Assembly: GCA_937874755.1 (NCBI GenBank)
Contig: CALNBC010000014.1
Coordinates: 1 to 12,484 of the forward strand
DNA: 12,484 nucleotides
Origin: an uncultured Clostridia bacterium
GTDB lineage: Bacteria; Bacillota; Clostridia; Christensenellales; CALWSW01
Reading direction: 5' to 3'
Shown here: positions 1,898 through 8,614 of the stretch, piece by piece
How positions within the stretch are numbered: position 1 is the first letter of the stretch
How the letters are laid out: each line of letters opens with the position of its first letter
Notes under the pieces: model-generated
The model's database searches: none
Seen by the model: the letters and a program-made list of their open reading frames with translations, nothing else
What the model was told of the DNA's origin: nothing
Program-made: the position numbers and the translations under genes

Positions 1898-1916
1898 TTT
1901 TGACATGAGTTGTGCG
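1898..1916 (+). repeat. 19-bp direct repeat, copy 2, at the selO breakpoint
   Basis: Identical to 1802-1820. Directly after it, the reading frame enters recognisable SelO sequence ([11 protein letters not shown] from about 1925), with no SelO-like residues before. Confidence 0.75.
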
Positions 1917-3112
1917 TGGTTACACGCGCACTGCTATTAGGCGAGCAAATAACTCCCTCTGGCGAGCGCGTCGACATTCAACTGAAGGGTTCGGGCAGAA
2001 CGGCGTTTTCTCGTCAAGGGGATGGAAGGGCGAGTTTGGGACCCATGCTTCGCGAATATATAATCAGCGAGGCGATGCATGCGTTCGGAATACCCACGAC
2101 GAGAAGTCTGGCGGTAGTTTTGACGGGTGAGCCTGTAATCCGCGAAAAGATGCTGCCCGGTGCGATACTGACCCGAGTCGCGTCCAGCCATATTCGCGTG
2201 GGCACGTTCGAATACGCCTCTAATATTGGCAATATCGAGGTGCTGTGCGCCCTCGCCGACTATACTATAAACCGCCATTTTATCGAAATTGCGGACGATG
2301 CAAACCGCTATCTGTCGCTACTTCGGGAAGTCATCAAGCACCAAGCATCGCTGGTGGCAAAATGGCAACTTGTCGGCTTCATACACGGCGTCATGAATAC
2401 CGACAATATGGCCATCAGCGGCGAGACGATAGACTACGGACCCTGTGCATTTATGGATGTGTACGACCCCGCGGTGGTGTTCAGTTCTATAGACATACAA
2501 GGTCGCTATGCCTACGGTAATCAGCCGGGCATCGCCGAGTGGAACATCGCACGATTTGCCGAGTCACTCATCCCTTTGATTGGCGGGGATCGCGGCAAGG
2601 CGGTCATGCTGGCGCAGGAAGAGGTGTCGCATTTTGAGGTACTGTTCAAAAGCCATTGGCTGGCGGGTATGCGAGCAAAGCTGGGAATCTTCAACGAAGA
2701 ACTTGGGGATGAAGCACTCATCGATACCCTTCTTGGCATGATGCAAAAATACAGGGCAGATTTCACCAACACATTCCTCGCCCTAACATTCGACAAAGAC
2801 GTGGATACTGCGCTTTTCGCCAGTGTTGAATTCGCTCATTGGAAGGATGACTGGCGCAAAAGGTTGCAAAGGCAGAAGCAGGGTGAGGAAGCTTCGCGCG
2901 AGTTAATGCGAAACAGCAACCCTGCACTCATTCCCCGCAACCATCGGGTGGAAGAAGCACTCGAAGCTGCGGTTGAGAAACGCGATTGCAGCAAGCTGAA
3001 CCGCCTGCTGGAAGCACTATCGCAGCCGTTCGCCCATACAGCGGCGCAAGCGGAATACGCCGAATTGCCCGATGCTTCTTTTTGCAACTACCAAACATTT
3101 TGCGGAACATAG
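1910..3112 (+). pseudogene. selO: SelO-family protein adenylyltransferase, N-terminally truncated
   Basis: SelO (YdiU/UPF0061) is a pseudokinase-fold enzyme that transfers AMP from ATP to Ser/Thr/Tyr of proteins. The 400-residue frame, read from TTG at 1910, matches the family from LLLGEQITP onward: QLKGSGR with the ATP-binding Lys26, [59 protein letters not shown] with D165/N166, TIDYGP with D175, NPALIPRNH, and a C-terminal FCGT whose Cys398 is where Sec sits in animal SelO. Family members are ~480-490 aa; the first ~95 residues (up to the LGDGR motif) are missing. The frame is closed by TGA at 1901 and has no ribosome binding site, and the break coincides with a 19-bp repeat. The body has no stops or frameshifts, so the truncation may be recent, or the 5' part may lie beyond the element to the left. 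Identity is certain; loss of function is inferred. Confidence 0.85.
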
Positions 3113-3164: not shown

Positions 3165-3218
3165 AAAAGCCACACTCCATATTATTTAGTATGTACAAAC
3201 ATTGGGGGTGCGGCTTTT
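3165..3218 (+). terminator. Imperfect hairpin: selO-end terminator and/or mask over the next start
   Basis: AAAAGCCACACTCC (3165-3178) pairs with GGGGTGCGGCTTTT (3205-3218) through 12 Watson-Crick pairs, one G-T and one mismatch, around a 26-nt AT-rich loop. It lies ~50 bp after the selO stop. The 3' arm contains the GGGGGTG ribosome binding site and the first two bases of the probable TTG start codon of the next gene, so in a read-through transcript it would hide that start. Confidence 0.5.
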
Positions 3219-3840
3219 GACTACGACTTCGCGCGCCATTTCCGCAAGAAGGCGGAAGGACTCGGCGCTCGCAGAGCATCTTTATACAAACGGCAGGGCG
3301 TATATCTCTGGAATGTTGCCCATCATCATCGGATTTGCGTCAGGTTGGGCTGCTGTGCTGATCGCGGGAGGAATCGCTTATTACGGAGCCGCCCAGGCGG
3401 CGGTAGATTCGCTGGCGCACGGCGGTGTGGGGCTATTTGCGGGTATTCTAAGGGGAATTTGGGTGAATGCCTCCGCATATTTCTTCATAGCGGCAGGTGG
3501 GCTATTTTGGCCTATAGCTCCGCTTTCTGCTCTGTTTCTGGCGCTGTGGGCATTCCCGGCGGGGTGCGCGATGCCGCTGTTGTTTGCGCTTGGCGTAAAA
3601 GGTGCGATTTGCGCGGTGCTTTGCGTTATAATCCCTCTTTTGCTCGCACTGCCGATTTTTCTTCGCGCTTGGGCGGCAATGCTAAGGGGTGCCAGGGCTT
3701 CGCTGCACAATGAGCACATCGAAGGCTATGTTAAAACCGCGCTTCAAGGTGCGCTCTGGCTGATTCCCGTCTGCCTGGTGCAATGTGTGATTATGCCGCT
3801 CTTGTTCAGGGGTATTTGTGCACTGTTTTTTTATGGATGA
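3217..3840 (+). CDS. Polytopic membrane protein, SpoIIM-like (stage II sporulation protein M family)
   Basis: A 207-aa integral membrane protein. TTG at 3217 is chosen because GGGGGTG (3204-3210) sits 6 nt upstream; TTG 3202 and GTG 3208 are in-frame alternatives with no upstream site. A basic cytoplasmic N-terminus (SARRRKD) precedes ~5 hydrophobic segments: ~31-55, 85-105, 105-120, 125-147 and 179-205. Length, topology and an amphipathic start (AEHLYTNGRAYI before helix 1) resemble SpoIIM, the DUF95-type protein that in Bacillus works with SpoIID/SpoIIP to degrade septal peptidoglycan during engulfment. Position supports this: spoIIM lies a little upstream of deoB(drm)-punA-dacF in Bacillus and many Clostridia. 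Sequence identity looks weak, so a generic DUF95 membrane protein is the alternative. Its stop codon overlaps the -35 of the deoB promoter. Confidence 0.55.
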   Translation: MTTTSRAISARRRKDSALAEHLYTNGRAYISGMLPIIIGFASGWAAVLIAGGIAYYGAAQAAVDSLAHGGVGLFAGILRGIWVNASAYFFIAAGGLFWPIAPLSALFLALWAFPAGCAMPLLFALGVKGAICAVLCVIIPLLLALPIFLRAWAAMLRGARASLHNEHIEGYVKTALQGALWLIPVCLVQCVIMPLLFRGICALFFYG

Positions 3841-3894: not shown

Positions 3895-5067
3895 ATGAAG
3901 AATAAAAAGATAATACTGATAGTGTTGGACAGCGCGGGTGTAGGCGAAATGCCCGATGCAGATGATTTCGGGGACGCGGGCGCAGACACGATAGGCAACA
4001 TAATAAAAAAACGCGGGCTGAACACTCCGAATATGGACGCGTTGGGGCTTCGCAGCATAAAGGGCACCAGTTTTTTCGAAGGGGGCGGGCGTATCGTCGG
4101 AAGCTTCGGCAAGGCGGCGGAGCTCACATGCGCTAAGGACACCACCAGCGGCCATTTTGAGCTTGCCGGCTTTATAATGGACAAGCCCTTCAAAACGTAC
4201 CCGAACGGCTTCCCCCGGCGCGTTATGGACGAATTCGAAAGGCGTATAGGCAGAGGAACCCTGGGTAACCGCACCGCTTCCGGAACGCAGATTATTAAAG
4301 AACTGGGCGACGAACACGTCGCGACCGGCAAGCCTATAATCTACACGTCGGCGGACAGCGTGTTCCAGATTGCAGCCCACGAAGAAGTCATACCACTGGA
4401 CGAGCTATACAGGCAGTGCAAAATAGCGAGGGAGCTCATGATGGGGGACGACCTCGTGGGCAGGATAATCGCCAGACCTTTCATCGGAACTAGCGGGAAC
4501 TACAAAAGGACAGAGAACAGGCGGGATTTCGCCCTGCCGCCGGAGAAGGATACGGTGCTCAACGCCCTGCAAGAGGCGGGGTACGACGTTGTAGGCGTCG
4601 GCAAAATAGAAGATATATTTTCAAAAAGCGGCTTGACCGAGGTAGACCACACCACGAATAACAAGGCGGGCACCGAATCCGCGATAAAATACGCAAACAG
4701 CAACAAAAACGGACTGATTTTTGTGAACCTTGTGGATTTTGATATGATGTACGGCCACAGGAACGACGTTGAAGGTTACGGAGCAGCGCTGGAAGCGTTC
4801 GATGCATGGCTTCCCGAAATCATGGCAGGCATGAGCGAATACGATTTGCTAATAATAACTGCGGATCACGGCTGCGACCCCAGCTTCCCCGGAACGGATC
4901 ATACCAGGGAATACATACCGCTTCTGTTATGGGGCAAGAACTTCAAAGCGGGAGTGGACATAGGCACGAGATCCACCTTTGCGGATGTCGCCGCGACCAT
5001 CGCGGACTTTTTCGATCTGGAGCCGTGGGCGGTCGGAACCTCCTTCCTGCCGGAAATTACCAATTGA
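3895..5067 (+). CDS. deoB: Phosphopentomutase
   Basis: DeoB interconverts (deoxy)ribose-1-phosphate and (deoxy)ribose-5-phosphate, linking nucleoside phosphorolysis to central carbon metabolism in the cytosol. At 390 aa it is the normal family length. The alkaline-phosphatase-superfamily Mn site is complete: D12 (IVLDSAGVGEMPDA), the phosphorylated T83 (AKDTTSGHFE), D283 and H288 (VDFDMMYGHR), D324-H325 (ITADHG) and H336 (GTDHTREY). Other family blocks are GNRTASGTQII, IYTSADSVFQIAAHEE and IARPFIG. GGAGG (3886-3890) lies 4 nt before the ATG. The gene has its own promoter and is followed after 10 nt by punA, so the two form a salvage operon. No nucleoside-repressor site was recognised. Confidence 0.97.
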   Translation: MKNKKIILIVLDSAGVGEMPDADDFGDAGADTIGNIIKKRGLNTPNMDALGLRSIKGTSFFEGGGRIVGSFGKAAELTCAKDTTSGHFELAGFIMDKPFKTYPNGFPRRVMDEFERRIGRGTLGNRTASGTQIIKELGDEHVATGKPIIYTSADSVFQIAAHEEVIPLDELYRQCKIARELMMGDDLVGRIIARPFIGTSGNYKRTENRRDFALPPEKDTVLNALQEAGYDVVGVGKIEDIFSKSGLTEVDHTTNNKAGTESAIKYANSNKNGLIFVNLVDFDMMYGHRNDVEGYGAALEAFDAWLPEIMAGMSEYDLLIITADHGCDPSFPGTDHTREYIPLLLWGKNFKAGVDIGTRSTFADVAATIADFFDLEPWAVGTSFLPEITN

Positions 5068-5077
5068 GGGGTGCATT

Positions 5078-5899
5078 ATGGACATCAAAAGCAGGATAAT
5101 CGGAGCGGCAAAACAAATAATGAGTGTTGTGGATTTTTCACCAGAGATAGGATTAGTTCTGGGTAGTGGCCTTGGGGATTATGCCGAAATGCTGGAAAAC
5201 CCAGTGATAATCGACTACGCCGACATACCCGGCTTCCCCGTATCCAGCGTGGCGGGGCACAAATCGCGCTTTGTGCTGGGGGAGCGGTTCGGCAGGAAGA
5301 TTATCGCAATGCAGGGAAGGTTCCACTATTACGAAGGCTATTCTCAGCAGGAACTCACGATACCCGTAAGGGCTATGCACCTGCTGGGCGTAGAAAAACT
5401 ATTGATAACCAACGCCGCAGGAGGCATAAATACCGCGTGGTCATCAGGCGCGCTGATGGCGATAACCGACCACATCAACTACTCGGGTGCGAATCCGCTG
5501 ATGGGACCGAATTTTGAAGAGTTCGGTTCGAGGTTCCCGGATATGTCCGAAGTGTACGACAGCGCACTTCGCGAAAAGCTGGTAGCAGAGGCAGAAAATG
5601 CCGGTATAAGGGTCGAGCGGGGCGTATACATCATGTTCACAGGTCCGAGCTACGAAACACCCGCGGAAATCCGCATGGCTAGGGCAATGGGTGCGGATGC
5701 GGTCGGAATGTCCACCGTGCCCGAGGCTATTGCGGCAAACCACTGCGGCATGAAAGTACTGGGAATTTCCTGCATCACAAACATGGCGGCGGGGGTACTA
5801 AAAGCCCCGCTGGATCACAAAGAGGTCATGGAGACGGCGAACAGGGTCAAGGGTAATTTTACCAAACTTATCGACATAGCGATTCAAAAGGTTTTTTGA
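5078..5899 (+). CDS. punA: Purine nucleoside phosphorylase (trimeric, PNP/MTAP family)
   Basis: Cleaves purine (deoxy)nucleosides with phosphate to free base and (deoxy)ribose-1-phosphate, the substrate of the adjacent DeoB. At 273 aa it is typical of the trimeric class. Motifs visible: phosphate loop GLVLGSGLG (S30), GHKSRF (H61), MQGRFHYYEGY (79-88), ITNAAGGI (110-117), the substrate-binding GPSYETPAEIRM (E193), and DAVGMSTVPEAIAANHCGM with ISCITNMAAG (N235). The Asn at 235 fits guanosine/inosine specificity of this class (family knowledge). The start at 5078 follows GAGGGG (5066-5071), which overlaps the deoB stop and implies translational coupling. A longer upstream reading frame would lie inside deoB and is rejected. 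A strong terminator follows at 5924-5948. Confidence 0.96.
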   Translation: MDIKSRIIGAAKQIMSVVDFSPEIGLVLGSGLGDYAEMLENPVIIDYADIPGFPVSSVAGHKSRFVLGERFGRKIIAMQGRFHYYEGYSQQELTIPVRAMHLLGVEKLLITNAAGGINTAWSSGALMAITDHINYSGANPLMGPNFEEFGSRFPDMSEVYDSALREKLVAEAENAGIRVERGVYIMFTGPSYETPAEIRMARAMGADAVGMSTVPEAIAANHCGMKVLGISCITNMAAGVLKAPLDHKEVMETANRVKGNFTKLIDIAIQKVF

Positions 5900-5923: not shown

Positions 5924-5948
5924 AAGGGCGGATTATACCGCCCTTTTT
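5924..5948 (+). terminator. Rho-independent terminator of deoB-punA
   Basis: Perfect 8-bp stem AAGGGCGG (5924-5931)/CCGCCCTT (5938-5945), loop ATTATA, ending in a run of five Ts. It lies 25 bp after the punA stop, so dacF needs its own promoter. Confidence 0.9.
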
Positions 5949-6020
5949 GTCATTAAGCACCTTGTATAGACAAAATGAGCCGTGAAAAAATAAGTTCATC
6001 AAAACATAGGAGGAATGAAC

Positions 6021-7190
6021 GTGGGTAAATTCAGGCGGTGGGCGGCAGCCACGCTGGCTGCAACCATATTGTTCGGGGCGCAATGGGCTTTTCCCGATCC
6101 TGTAAGGGCGGAAGAGTTGCCCTTTGCAGTAGACGCGAAGGCGGCGATCCTGATGGACGCCGCCTCCGGTCAAATAATATACGAAAAGAACGCGTACGAG
6201 AATTTCGACGTCGCGGGAATGACAAAATTGATGAGCGCGCTTATCGTATCCGAAGCGCTGGAATCAGGTGCGCTATCCCTAACCGATACTGCGAACGTAA
6301 GCAGCAACGCTGCGGGGCTGGGTGGTATGAGCGCCTTTTTGGCTGCGGCACAGGATTATTCCGTCGACGTACTCTATAAAGCTATGCTGATGATTTCCGC
6401 GAACGACGCGACTGCTGCACTCGCAGAGAAGCTTTGCGGCTCCACCGAAGCATTTGTCGCAAAGATGAACGAAAGGTCTGCAAGCCTGGGACTCACCGCA
6501 GTGTTCACCAGCGCAACAGGTCATAGGTCGGATGGTCAGGGGTTGAACGCTATGGATGCGGCTGTCATAGCCGCGCAGCTTTGCAAGCATCCGGGCGCGT
6601 TGGCTTACACTTCTATTTATATGGACGAGCTTCTGCATGCCGACGGAAGGCGCACAGAACTTGTCAATCCGAACAGGCTAGTCAGATTTTACTCTGGGTG
6701 CGACGGACTGTCCACCGGCTCGAACAATTCTGCAGGATATTCCGGAGCGTTTGCGGCTCAAAGAAACGGAACGCGCTATATAGCTGTGGTAATCGGTGCC
6801 AACAATTCAGACAACCGCTCGGCAATCGCTCAAAAACTGTTAGATCATGCCTTCGCTAACTATGAATCCGTGCTGGTCATAGAGGAAGGCAAGGGCGTTG
6901 CGAAGGATGTGCCCATCGAGGGTGGACGCAAGAAGTCGGTGCACGGTGTCGCCGGGAAAACGCTTTCTATGCTGCTCAAAAAGGGCGAGGCTTCGGGCAT
7001 AACGAAAGAAGTCGAAATCAGCGAACTGCTGACCGCCCCTGTGGAAGTGGGCGCTCAGATGGGGGAACTCATCGTCAAGCTAAACGGCACAGAGCTAGCC
7101 CGCGTTCCGATAGTAGCCTGCGAAACCGTCGAAAAGGCGTCGATAGGGAGCGCCCTGCGCACCATCTGGCTGAACTGGTTGCATATGTAA
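6021..7190 (+). CDS. dacF: DacF-like D-Ala-D-Ala carboxypeptidase homologue, probably inactive
   Basis: Low-molecular-weight PBP (S11) family, exported and membrane-anchored; active members trim the terminal D-Ala of peptidoglycan stem peptides. The GTG at 6021 is preferred because AGGAGG (6008-6013) is 7 nt before it but only 1 nt before ATG 6015. The 389-aa product has a signal peptide (KFRRW, hydrophobic core, cleavage near VRAEE), a transpeptidase-like domain (~35-275), a PBP5_C-type beta domain (~280-370) and a C-terminal amphipathic anchor (SALRTIWLNWLHM). The middle motif SAN is intact (S128-N130), but the SxxK nucleophile position reads G-M-T-K (Gly66, Lys69) and the KTG motif reads S-T-G (Ser232). 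Codons GGA and TCC confirm both changes. An otherwise intact frame with a dead active site implies a pseudoenzyme with a binding or scaffold role. Neighbours punA and lysA match the Bacillus dacF region, minus spoIIA. Confidence 0.9.
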   Translation: MGKFRRWAAATLAATILFGAQWAFPDPVRAEELPFAVDAKAAILMDAASGQIIYEKNAYENFDVAGMTKLMSALIVSEALESGALSLTDTANVSSNAAGLGGMSAFLAAAQDYSVDVLYKAMLMISANDATAALAEKLCGSTEAFVAKMNERSASLGLTAVFTSATGHRSDGQGLNAMDAAVIAAQLCKHPGALAYTSIYMDELLHADGRRTELVNPNRLVRFYSGCDGLSTGSNNSAGYSGAFAAQRNGTRYIAVVIGANNSDNRSAIAQKLLDHAFANYESVLVIEEGKGVAKDVPIEGGRKKSVHGVAGKTLSMLLKKGEASGITKEVEISELLTAPVEVGAQMGELIVKLNGTELARVPIVACETVEKASIGSALRTIWLNWLHM

Positions 7191-7300: not shown

Positions 7301-8614
7301 ATGAAACCATGGGAAAAAATCAGCGTCAGCGCTGCCGGCAATATGGTGTTTGGCGGATGCGACTGTATAGAGCTCGTTAAAGAATACGGAACTCCGCTTT
7401 ATGTACTGGATGAGCGTGTTGTGCGGGAAGTTTGTCGCGGATTCGATTCCGCCCTTCGCGGTGCGGGCGCACAAGGCAGGGTGTATTACGCCAGCAAAGC
7501 GCTTTCCACCACCGCCCTGTACCGCATAATAGAGCAGGAAGGTCTCGGGATAGACGTGGTCTCAGGCGGTGAATTATACACTGCGCAAAACGCCTCCTTC
7601 CCCGGCGAACGCATAGTCTTCCACGGAAACAACAAAACCCCCGATGAACTCAGGATGGCGGTCGAATACGGCGTAGGTTGCATAGTTATAGACAGTCACG
7701 AGGAGATAGGCACCCTTGCGGACATAGCGAGGGACTGCCGAAAGACGGTACGCGTATCCCTGCGCGTCAAGCCGGGAATAGAGGCACACACCCACGAATT
7801 CGTGCTCACCGCCATAGATGACTGCAAGTTCGGTCTCGGGCTGTACGACGGCGAGGCTCGCCTTGCCGTAAAAGAAATCCTCACTCGCAAAGAGCTAAAG
7901 CTAATCGGGCTCCACTGCCACATAGGTTCTCAAATATTCGAGAAAGAGCCCTTCTTCATAGCGGCGGACAGGCTTACGGATTTTGCCCTATCGATAAAGA
8001 AAGATCTGGATACCGAGATTAAAGAAATCAGCTTCGGGGGCGGTTTCGGCATAATGTATACCGAGAAGGACGCCGAGGCAGAGCCTTACGAATTCATAGG
8101 CGAGATGGTAGAAGCGCTATACAAAAACTGCGACGAAAAAGGTCTCCCGCATTACGACTTTTGTATCGAACCGGGCCGCGCCATAGTAGGCGAAGCCGGA
8201 ATAACCTTGTATACGGTGGGAACGGTCAAGCGCGTGCCGGGAGTGCGCACCTACGTCAGCGTGGATGGCGGTATGGGGGACAACCCTCGCCACATGCTCT
8301 ACGGTTCTGAATACACCGCAAAGCTGGTCAACAAACCCACCGCGGCAGCTACGGAAACGCTCGCCATTGCAGGGCGGTATTGCGAATCGGGTGATATTCT
8401 GATTAAAGAAGCCAAATTGCCTCCATGCCAGGCTGGAGATGTATTGGCGGTGTTCTCCACGGGCGCGTATAATTATTCTATGGCATCAAACTACAACCGC
8501 GTGCCGATACCCGCGATGGTGCTGGTAAACGAAGGTAAGCATGCGCAGATTGTGAAACGGCAGAGCTACGAACAGCTTATCGAGAACGACACTATGGCTC
8601 CCTGGCAGAAGTAA
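7301..8614 (+). CDS. lysA: Diaminopimelate decarboxylase
   Basis: PLP enzyme that decarboxylates meso-diaminopimelate to L-lysine, the last step of lysine synthesis. At 437 aa it is within the family's normal size. It has the alanine-racemase-like barrel with the PLP lysine K66 in VYYASKA, DVVSGGELYTA (85-94), FHGNNKT (107-112), GLHCHIGSQ (203-211), the phosphate-binding GGGFG (246-250), EPGRAIVGEAG (290-300), and the C-terminal domain elements DGGMGDNPRHMLYG (322-335) and CESGD (361-365), whose Cys completes the partner subunit's active site, plus GAYNYSMAS. ATG 7301 is preceded by GGAG with a rather long 10-nt spacing. It is monocistronic: own promoter and a strong terminator. The position after dacF recalls Bacillus, where spoIIA and spoVA genes lie between the two. 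Confidence 0.95.
   Translation: MKPWEKISVSAAGNMVFGGCDCIELVKEYGTPLYVLDERVVREVCRGFDSALRGAGAQGRVYYASKALSTTALYRIIEQEGLGIDVVSGGELYTAQNASFPGERIVFHGNNKTPDELRMAVEYGVGCIVIDSHEEIGTLADIARDCRKTVRVSLRVKPGIEAHTHEFVLTAIDDCKFGLGLYDGEARLAVKEILTRKELKLIGLHCHIGSQIFEKEPFFIAADRLTDFALSIKKDLDTEIKEISFGGGFGIMYTEKDAEAEPYEFIGEMVEALYKNCDEKGLPHYDFCIEPGRAIVGEAGITLYTVGTVKRVPGVRTYVSVDGGMGDNPRHMLYGSEYTAKLVNKPTAAATETLAIAGRYCESGDILIKEAKLPPCQAGDVLAVFSTGAYNYSMASNYNRVPIPAMVLVNEGKHAQIVKRQSYEQLIENDTMAPWQK

Follow-up and report, generated by a model that had tools for sequence, protein, structure and literature searches.

A DacF-derived and probably inactive S11 protein retained across a clade of bacteria, most of them with sporulation genes

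What becomes of an enzyme that trims the spore wall once its cutting residues are gone? The question is raised by a dacF-type gene of an uncultured Clostridia bacterium (order Christensenellales, contig CALNBC010000014.1), located in a stretch of 12,484 nucleotides that we call the window. Its product would derive from DacF, the forespore DD-carboxypeptidase of peptidase family S11, and lacks both the nucleophilic serine of the SxxK motif and the lysine of the KTG motif. It appears to be a gut bacterium's disarmed copy of a spore-wall-trimming enzyme, probably with a non-cutting job. Residue numbers follow the 389-residue window protein, and the features of the gene are as follows.

6008..6013, + strand: ribosome-binding site AGGAGG, 7 nt ahead of GTG 6021
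6021..7190, + strand: pseudo-dacF coding sequence, 389 aa; GTG start, alternative ATG at 6015, stop TAA at 7190
6120..6803, + strand: Peptidase_S11 domain (Pfam PF00768, E 4.5e-49, over the cut-off)
6216..6227, + strand: SxxK remnant Gly66-Met-Thr-Lys69 (Gly66 is GGA at 6216-6218; Lys69, at 6225-6227, is retained)
6396..6404, + strand: SxN motif Ser126-Ala127-Asn128, kept, as read from the sequence
6711..6719, + strand: KTG remnant Ser231-Thr232-Gly233 (Ser231 is TCC at 6711-6713; Thr232-Gly233 is retained)
6861..7136, + strand: PBP5_C beta domain (Pfam PF07943, E 6.6e-15, over the cut-off)
7143..7184, + strand: C-terminal helix (residues 375-388 of the predicted model), a probable membrane anchor by comparison with PBP5

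GTG 6021 is a likelier start than ATG 6015 because of the spacing of AGGAGG, and database protein P0001 begins at the same codon. An earlier note on this DNA had described a probable penicillin-binding pseudoenzyme, and its readings of G-M-T-K, S-T-G and an intact SAN are exact. The loss that it called the destruction of two of three signatures is real, but each affected motif is only half lost, as the SxxK lysine and the Thr-Gly pair remain. Measured against a serine DD-carboxypeptidase, the protein thus has the SxxK lysine and SxN and lacks the nucleophile and the KTG lysine. Because these two residues are replaced (Ser to Gly, Lys to Ser), the S11 mechanism should be unusable, and the window protein almost certainly performs no S11 catalysis.

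The C-terminal beta domain and conserved fold that the note had anticipated are both borne out. The predicted structure keeps the PBP5-type fold, with PBP5/PBP6 (PBP, penicillin-binding protein) as the best solved structural matches, and contains helices at residues 2-23 and 375-388, the signal-peptide and anchor positions. The protein is probably secreted and membrane-anchored, judging from this model. A displaced functional serine or lysine was sought and none was found; the motif columns align gap-free in three alignments with solved structures.

The loss is neither a sequence error nor recent, nor is it a peculiarity of one genome. A search of 5.8 billion proteins (7,998 candidates scored, 149 matches, the best 120 of 149 listed) shows Gly in place of Ser in all of the 22 best matches after the window protein (P0002-P0023, 51-86% identity), and Ser, Ala or Met at the KTG lysine position in all 22. 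The intact close relatives that the earlier note had considered as a counter-indication are therefore absent from the nearest proteins. A profile built from 20 clade members was then used to search again and gave 2,599 matches, the best 120 of which were listed. The enlarged alignment has 447 rows and, after removal of seven paralogue rows and four with motif gaps, 436. Both residues are present in 373 of these, 11 have Ser and no Lys, 51 have neither, and one has Lys and no Ser. The 63 rows with any loss (62 distinct sequences) form a single clade (FastTree, local support 98) in which every member is missing one or both residues, and a careful 98-row tree recovers the same clade for its 40 loss rows (99/88). 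These figures come from the best-listed matches, and dead S11 proteins may also occur elsewhere. Outside the clade, Ser and Lys are both present in 373 of 373 aligned rows; with all 22 nearest proteins sharing the double loss, chance is not the explanation. Source labels are Christensenellales for P0003, P0006 and P0124, and the wider Clostridiales and Eubacteriales for P0111 and P0150. The automated name "D-alanyl-D-alanine carboxypeptidase" given to P0003, P0004 and P0006 is probably wrong for this clade.

In a tree calculated with the motifs masked, the 38 rows that have lost the KTG lysine separate as a single clade from the 61 that keep it (97/95; found in 98% of 200 bootstraps). The serine position underwent at least four state changes within these 38 rows, some of which, in families f2, f22, f16 and f31, retain Ser without Lys. 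The replacements of Ser in the clade as a whole are Gly, Thr or Asn in different members. A single, strictly first loss of the lysine was considered and is ruled out as a firm claim by P0150 (NVIK/KTG), which has Asn for Ser, keeps Lys and is placed within the clade, with L214 as its sister (100/95). The L214 lineage has the opposite loss, with Ser kept and Ala for Lys. The position of P0150 implies that the lysine was either lost once and regained once, or lost several times.

We sampled the order without exhausting it: the 396 genomes are a subset of a larger group, 251 gave a match at 1e-60, and 121 loci were read (the window and 120 fetched). The KTG lysine is absent in 10 of these loci, six of which lack Ser too, and 111 have both residues. 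Among 80 public genome contig loci, 78 keep both, and two are truncated before SxxK yet have KTG. Twenty further genomes, 13 with a match at 1e-30, brought eight more degenerate genes (families f31 and f11) and, in f22, a truncated DacF that lacks the lysine. No DacF match at E 1e-30 was found in the other seven (G022, G031, G053, G005, G011, G055 and G045), in which the gene is lost or too diverged. The order listing has 33 family codes, and full-length DacF was read in 28 (f5, f10, f21 and f30 were left out; f19 is partial). Degenerate DacF occurs in nine of the 28: f1, f2, f7, f11, f16, f22, f23, f26 and f31. The trait is thus clade-wide, among bacteria mostly with sporulation genes, which lay beyond the sight of the earlier note. 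As a separate observation, the order-wide search match reports one in-frame TAA at several f28 loci (e.g., L118).

Is the protein maintained? Selection for a retained protein, as the note had suggested, is indicated by purifying dN/dS (nonsynonymous to synonymous substitution rates) of 0.10 and 0.075, pairwise estimates from the two degenerate pairs that allowed measurement. No in-frame stop is reported for degenerate dacF genes in the genome and locus matches examined. Thr232 and Gly233 are invariant in 63 of 63 clade rows. Lys69 and Asn128 are each kept in 56 and Ser126 in 54, with Asn, Cys or Gly replacing Ser126 in some members. Ser234 and Tyr240 are each present in 62 of 63 rows and are variable outside the clade. 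Ser occupies position 103, part of a Gly-Gly-Ser loop, in 366 of 373 rows outside the clade and in four of 63 within it. The cleft is, as read from these columns, remodelled rather than scrambled. The shared double loss, the lack of displaced residues, the kept fold and the purifying selection all support the pseudoenzyme interpretation.

The degenerate clade is old, and the history of its carriers is compatible with vertical inheritance. When RpoB and SpoIVA from 29 genomes are combined in one tree (G352 was omitted because of its long branch), a single branch separates the 12 degenerate genomes, which represent nine families, from the rest; its support is weak (49/93; present in 50% of 200 bootstrap trees). 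In the SpoIVA-only tree, leaving G130 and G163 aside, seven of eight degenerate genomes with SpoIVA group at 98/93, and the eighth, G001 (of the window's family), is placed elsewhere. G130 stands beside that group (93/55) and G163 does not join it; a constraint uniting those eight degenerate genomes has an approximately unbiased test p of 0.09. The RpoB-only tree resolved little. Since the joint tree is weak and the SpoIVA-only tree places the window's family elsewhere, a single origin with vertical inheritance is no more than plausible.

The surroundings of the gene point to sporulation. It occupies the dacF-type position after deoB and punA, with the following neighbours and signals.

3202..3840, + strand: membrane protein of 212 aa, SpoIIM-like but divergent, at the place of SpoIIM (hhalign against four positional homologues: probability 88.5%, E 2.7e-6)
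3895..5067, + strand: deoB/drm-like phosphopentomutase, a frequent neighbour (Pfam Metalloenzyme; synteny)
5075..5899, + strand: punA/pupG-like purine nucleoside phosphorylase, a frequent neighbour (Pfam PNP_UDP_1; synteny)
5924..5945, + strand: terminator-like hairpin after punA (two such sites in the region, against a chance expectation of 1.5)
5964..5992, + strand: forespore (sigma-F type) promoter-like site GTATA-N14-TGAAAAAATA, a motif match only
7301..8614, + strand: lysA-like diaminopimelate decarboxylase, a frequent neighbour (Pfam; synteny)

The 3202-3840 product has no Pfam or NCBIfam match at ordinary thresholds, and three of the four positional homologues in its profile match Pfam SpoIIM; it distantly matches that profile and may be a very divergent SpoIIM. 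Similar arrangements were identified at loci L216, L217, L129 and partly L218, where dacF lies in a cluster ordered argR, recN, spoIVB, spo0A, spoIIM, deoB and/or punA, dacF, lysA, M50-like protease, scpA, scpB, ytfJ. As exceptions, lysA is missing from L129 and L218, deoB was not seen at L216 nor punA at L129, and the protein standing where SpoIIM would be in L129 does not match the SpoIIM profile. Loci L214 and L215 are without this downstream order. Spo0A and SpoIIM were identified by profile, and lysA, deoB, punA, scpA, scpB and ytfJ by tblastn; argR, recN, spoIVB and the M50-like protease are names that we presume by eye. 

Because the terminator-like hairpin sits after punA, dacF may have its own promoter. 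Tested against dinucleotide shuffles, the sigma-F motif (published consensus in PMC3416734) reaches p<0.05 at 5 of the 10 degenerate dacF loci, at 11 of the 90 intact ones that could be used and at 4 of 203 regions of control genes. The window site was seen before testing, and with the window excluded the first of these counts is 4 of 9. At dacF loci the motif is in excess over control genes by Mann-Whitney test (p 8e-4 for degenerate and 5e-6 for intact dacF). The protein shares its fold, domain order, place after nucleoside genes and forespore-type promoter motif with Bacillus/Clostridioides DacF; unlike them, it is without the Ser nucleophile and the KTG lysine, and the spoIIA operon is not adjacent in the window. 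Excerpts of PMC3789822 place C. difficile dacF under sigma-G control. Locus and promoter motif together make expression in the forespore somewhat likelier than not.

Adjacent spoIIA was tried as a marker and set aside: beside dacF, intact or degenerate, there is no spoIIAA/spoIIAB match in the 121 order loci, within flanks that reach ~9 kb at most and are frequently shorter. In eight loci, all with intact dacF, a sigF-like match that may be another sigma factor occurs 6-7 kb upstream of dacF. The window's genome itself carries a spoIIAA-spoIIAB-sigF operon. Across the 12 degenerate genomes, profile cut-offs are exceeded by Spo0A in 11, SpoIVA in 10 and SpoIIAB in 11; Spo0A is missed in G000 and SpoIVA in G000 and G023, genomes that are 72-74% complete. 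In G022, where no DacF was found, neither SpoIVA nor SpoIIAB is over the cut-off. Spo0A exceeds its cut-off twice in several genomes of the order, and in G002, G033, G018 and G163 one of the two matches lies within a few kb of dacF.

Intact S11 enzymes are also present. The 10 degenerate genomes examined first list 32 S11 genes, the 10 degenerate dacF and 22 others, 21 of which were read (the remaining one, in G106, was without a locus). SxN and KTG are intact in all 21. SxxK is intact in the 20 genes whose frame includes it; the frame of L262, which is truncated, does not. In four of the ten genomes (G002, G016, G023 and G043) an intact S11 gene lies ~4-6 kb downstream of the degenerate dacF, after scpA-scpB-ytfJ, a position like that of dacB in B. 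subtilis.

What, then, might the protein do? A selected, non-catalytic role is very probable. Precedents from PBP5 S44G, PBP6a and PBP4 suggest that this role may be binding rather than cutting. In E. coli PBP5, the Ser-to-Gly change also seen in the window (S44G) abolishes penicillin binding and carboxypeptidase activity, according to excerpts of PMC2909392 that cite older work, so that "penicillin-binding" is a doubtful part of the name given in the earlier note. S44G is a single laboratory mutation, whereas the loss in the window clade is natural, clade-wide and twofold. Inactive PBP5 worsens shape defects; PBP6a, by the same account, seems to have no carboxypeptidase activity and may shield some pentapeptides (PMC4916385, excerpts). 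Changing the KTG lysine of PBP5 (K213R) is said to abolish carboxypeptidase activity, in the title of a 1992 paper cited in PMC9430164; PBP5 K213R still binds penicillin, whereas the window protein lacks the Ser as well. S. aureus PBP4 S75C, an inactive S11-type protein, still contacts muropeptides by nuclear magnetic resonance (PMC6346638, excerpts), although PBP4 is a transpeptidase and S75C, with Cys and not Gly, is still acylated by beta-lactams. Fungal Ecm14 is described in part of PMC7706225 as a conserved pseudopeptidase predicted inactive. It belongs to a fungal metallocarboxypeptidase family and resembles the window protein as a conserved peptidase-family member predicted to be inactive. 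The Ecm14 fold is unrelated to the S11 fold.

We give a slightly better than even chance to the overall proposal that a DacF-derived pseudoenzyme is produced in the forespore, where its retained cleft would bind peptidoglycan stem peptides non-covalently; the bound protein would shield pentapeptides from trimming or position intact S11 enzymes, and spore-wall cross-linking would be tuned as a result. Stem-peptide binding as the working step, argued by analogy, falls somewhat short of an even chance. More tentative still, and rather unlikely in full detail, is a version in which the hole left by Gly accepts intact D-Ala-D-Ala, held by the fixed Thr-Gly-Ser edge and Tyr240, so that a forespore shield protects pentapeptides and sets cross-linking while the intact downstream S11 enzyme trims.

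Several observations weigh against this proposal. The promoter motif reaches significance in only half of the degenerate loci, and two of those five are from one genus. SpoIIAB is not over the cut-off in G043 (96% complete), and G048 (98% complete), whose truncated DacF is also without the lysine, has no SpoIVA match. The only nucleotide pair of the window's subclade is saturated (proportions of synonymous and nonsynonymous differences pS 0.75 and pN 0.33) and yields no dN/dS, and the L214/L215 pair is near saturation (synonymous divergence dS 1.3) and still has Ser. Cleft positions 103, 160, 231, 235 and 241 are relaxed in the clade. In family f11 (L356, L357, L360 and L361), Arg replaces the SxxK lysine in three of four loci and Gly the SxN asparagine in all four, which is, on this reading of the motifs, a deeper stage of active-site loss. 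Finally, PBP5 S44G loses septal localisation, for which its authors blame failed substrate binding and hydrolysis (PMC2909392, excerpts); this speaks against a protein that reads stem peptides strongly.

The same mutant's apparent loss of substrate targeting, again from those excerpts, fits a pure protein scaffold, in which spore-envelope proteins would be held together by the fold and the C-terminal beta domain, and the former cleft would play no part in ligand binding. The retained PBP5_C domain and the drift of positions 66, 103, 160, 231 and 235 within a stable fold fit it too. Still, a functionless cleft would not need the invariant Thr232-Gly233, the mostly kept Lys69 and Asn128 or the fixed Ser234 and Tyr240, and we regard a scaffold as possible and rather unlikely. 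Slow decay, with DacF dispensable, being lost and only residually conserved, could account for the repeated and different Ser replacements, the further motif loss in f11 and the seven genomes without a match; it is improbable in view of the low dN/dS of both measurable pairs, the lack of reported in-frame stops and a clade whose 63 rows remain alignable at all three motifs. More improbable again is a changed catalytic mechanism, for example one in which Ser126 of SxN acts together with Lys69, whether on the original substrate or a different one. Both residues are mostly retained in the clade, but Ser126 is Asn, Cys or Gly in some members, and PBP5 S44G keeps the counterparts of both residues. 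That laboratory mutant is inactive (PMC2909392, excerpts). Nor do we know of an S11 enzyme that works in such a way. The idea that DacF died since these bacteria lost sporulation can draw on flanks without spoIIAA/spoIIAB, unlike those of Bacillus norwichensis (L010), but it is practically negligible, as the Spo0A, SpoIVA and SpoIIAB matches and the window genome's sigF operon contradict it for most of the clade and loci with intact dacF are equally without adjacent spoIIA. In that Bacillus, we take the open reading frames after dacF, by their place, to be spoIIAA-AB-sigF.

Pseudoenzymes in general are well known. Penicillin-binding proteins are a classic enzyme group, and search listings of the open-access literature turned up no published case of DacF or other S11 proteins that are catalytically dead across a natural, conserved clade. 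If this interpretation of pseudo-DacF is correct, spore-wall building in a large, mostly uncultured bacterial group uses DacF for a non-cutting task, and non-enzymatic roles of low-molecular-weight PBPs become testable.

Elsewhere in the window, positions 1910-3112 encode a SelO homologue with a TTG start, whose match begins at profile position 89 of 466. The three frames upstream of it (1461-1960) contain many stops, and its 5' part looks lost or damaged. Also present upstream of SelO, at 667-1461, is a gene for a helix-turn-helix and S24 peptidase protein of the LexA or phage-repressor type.
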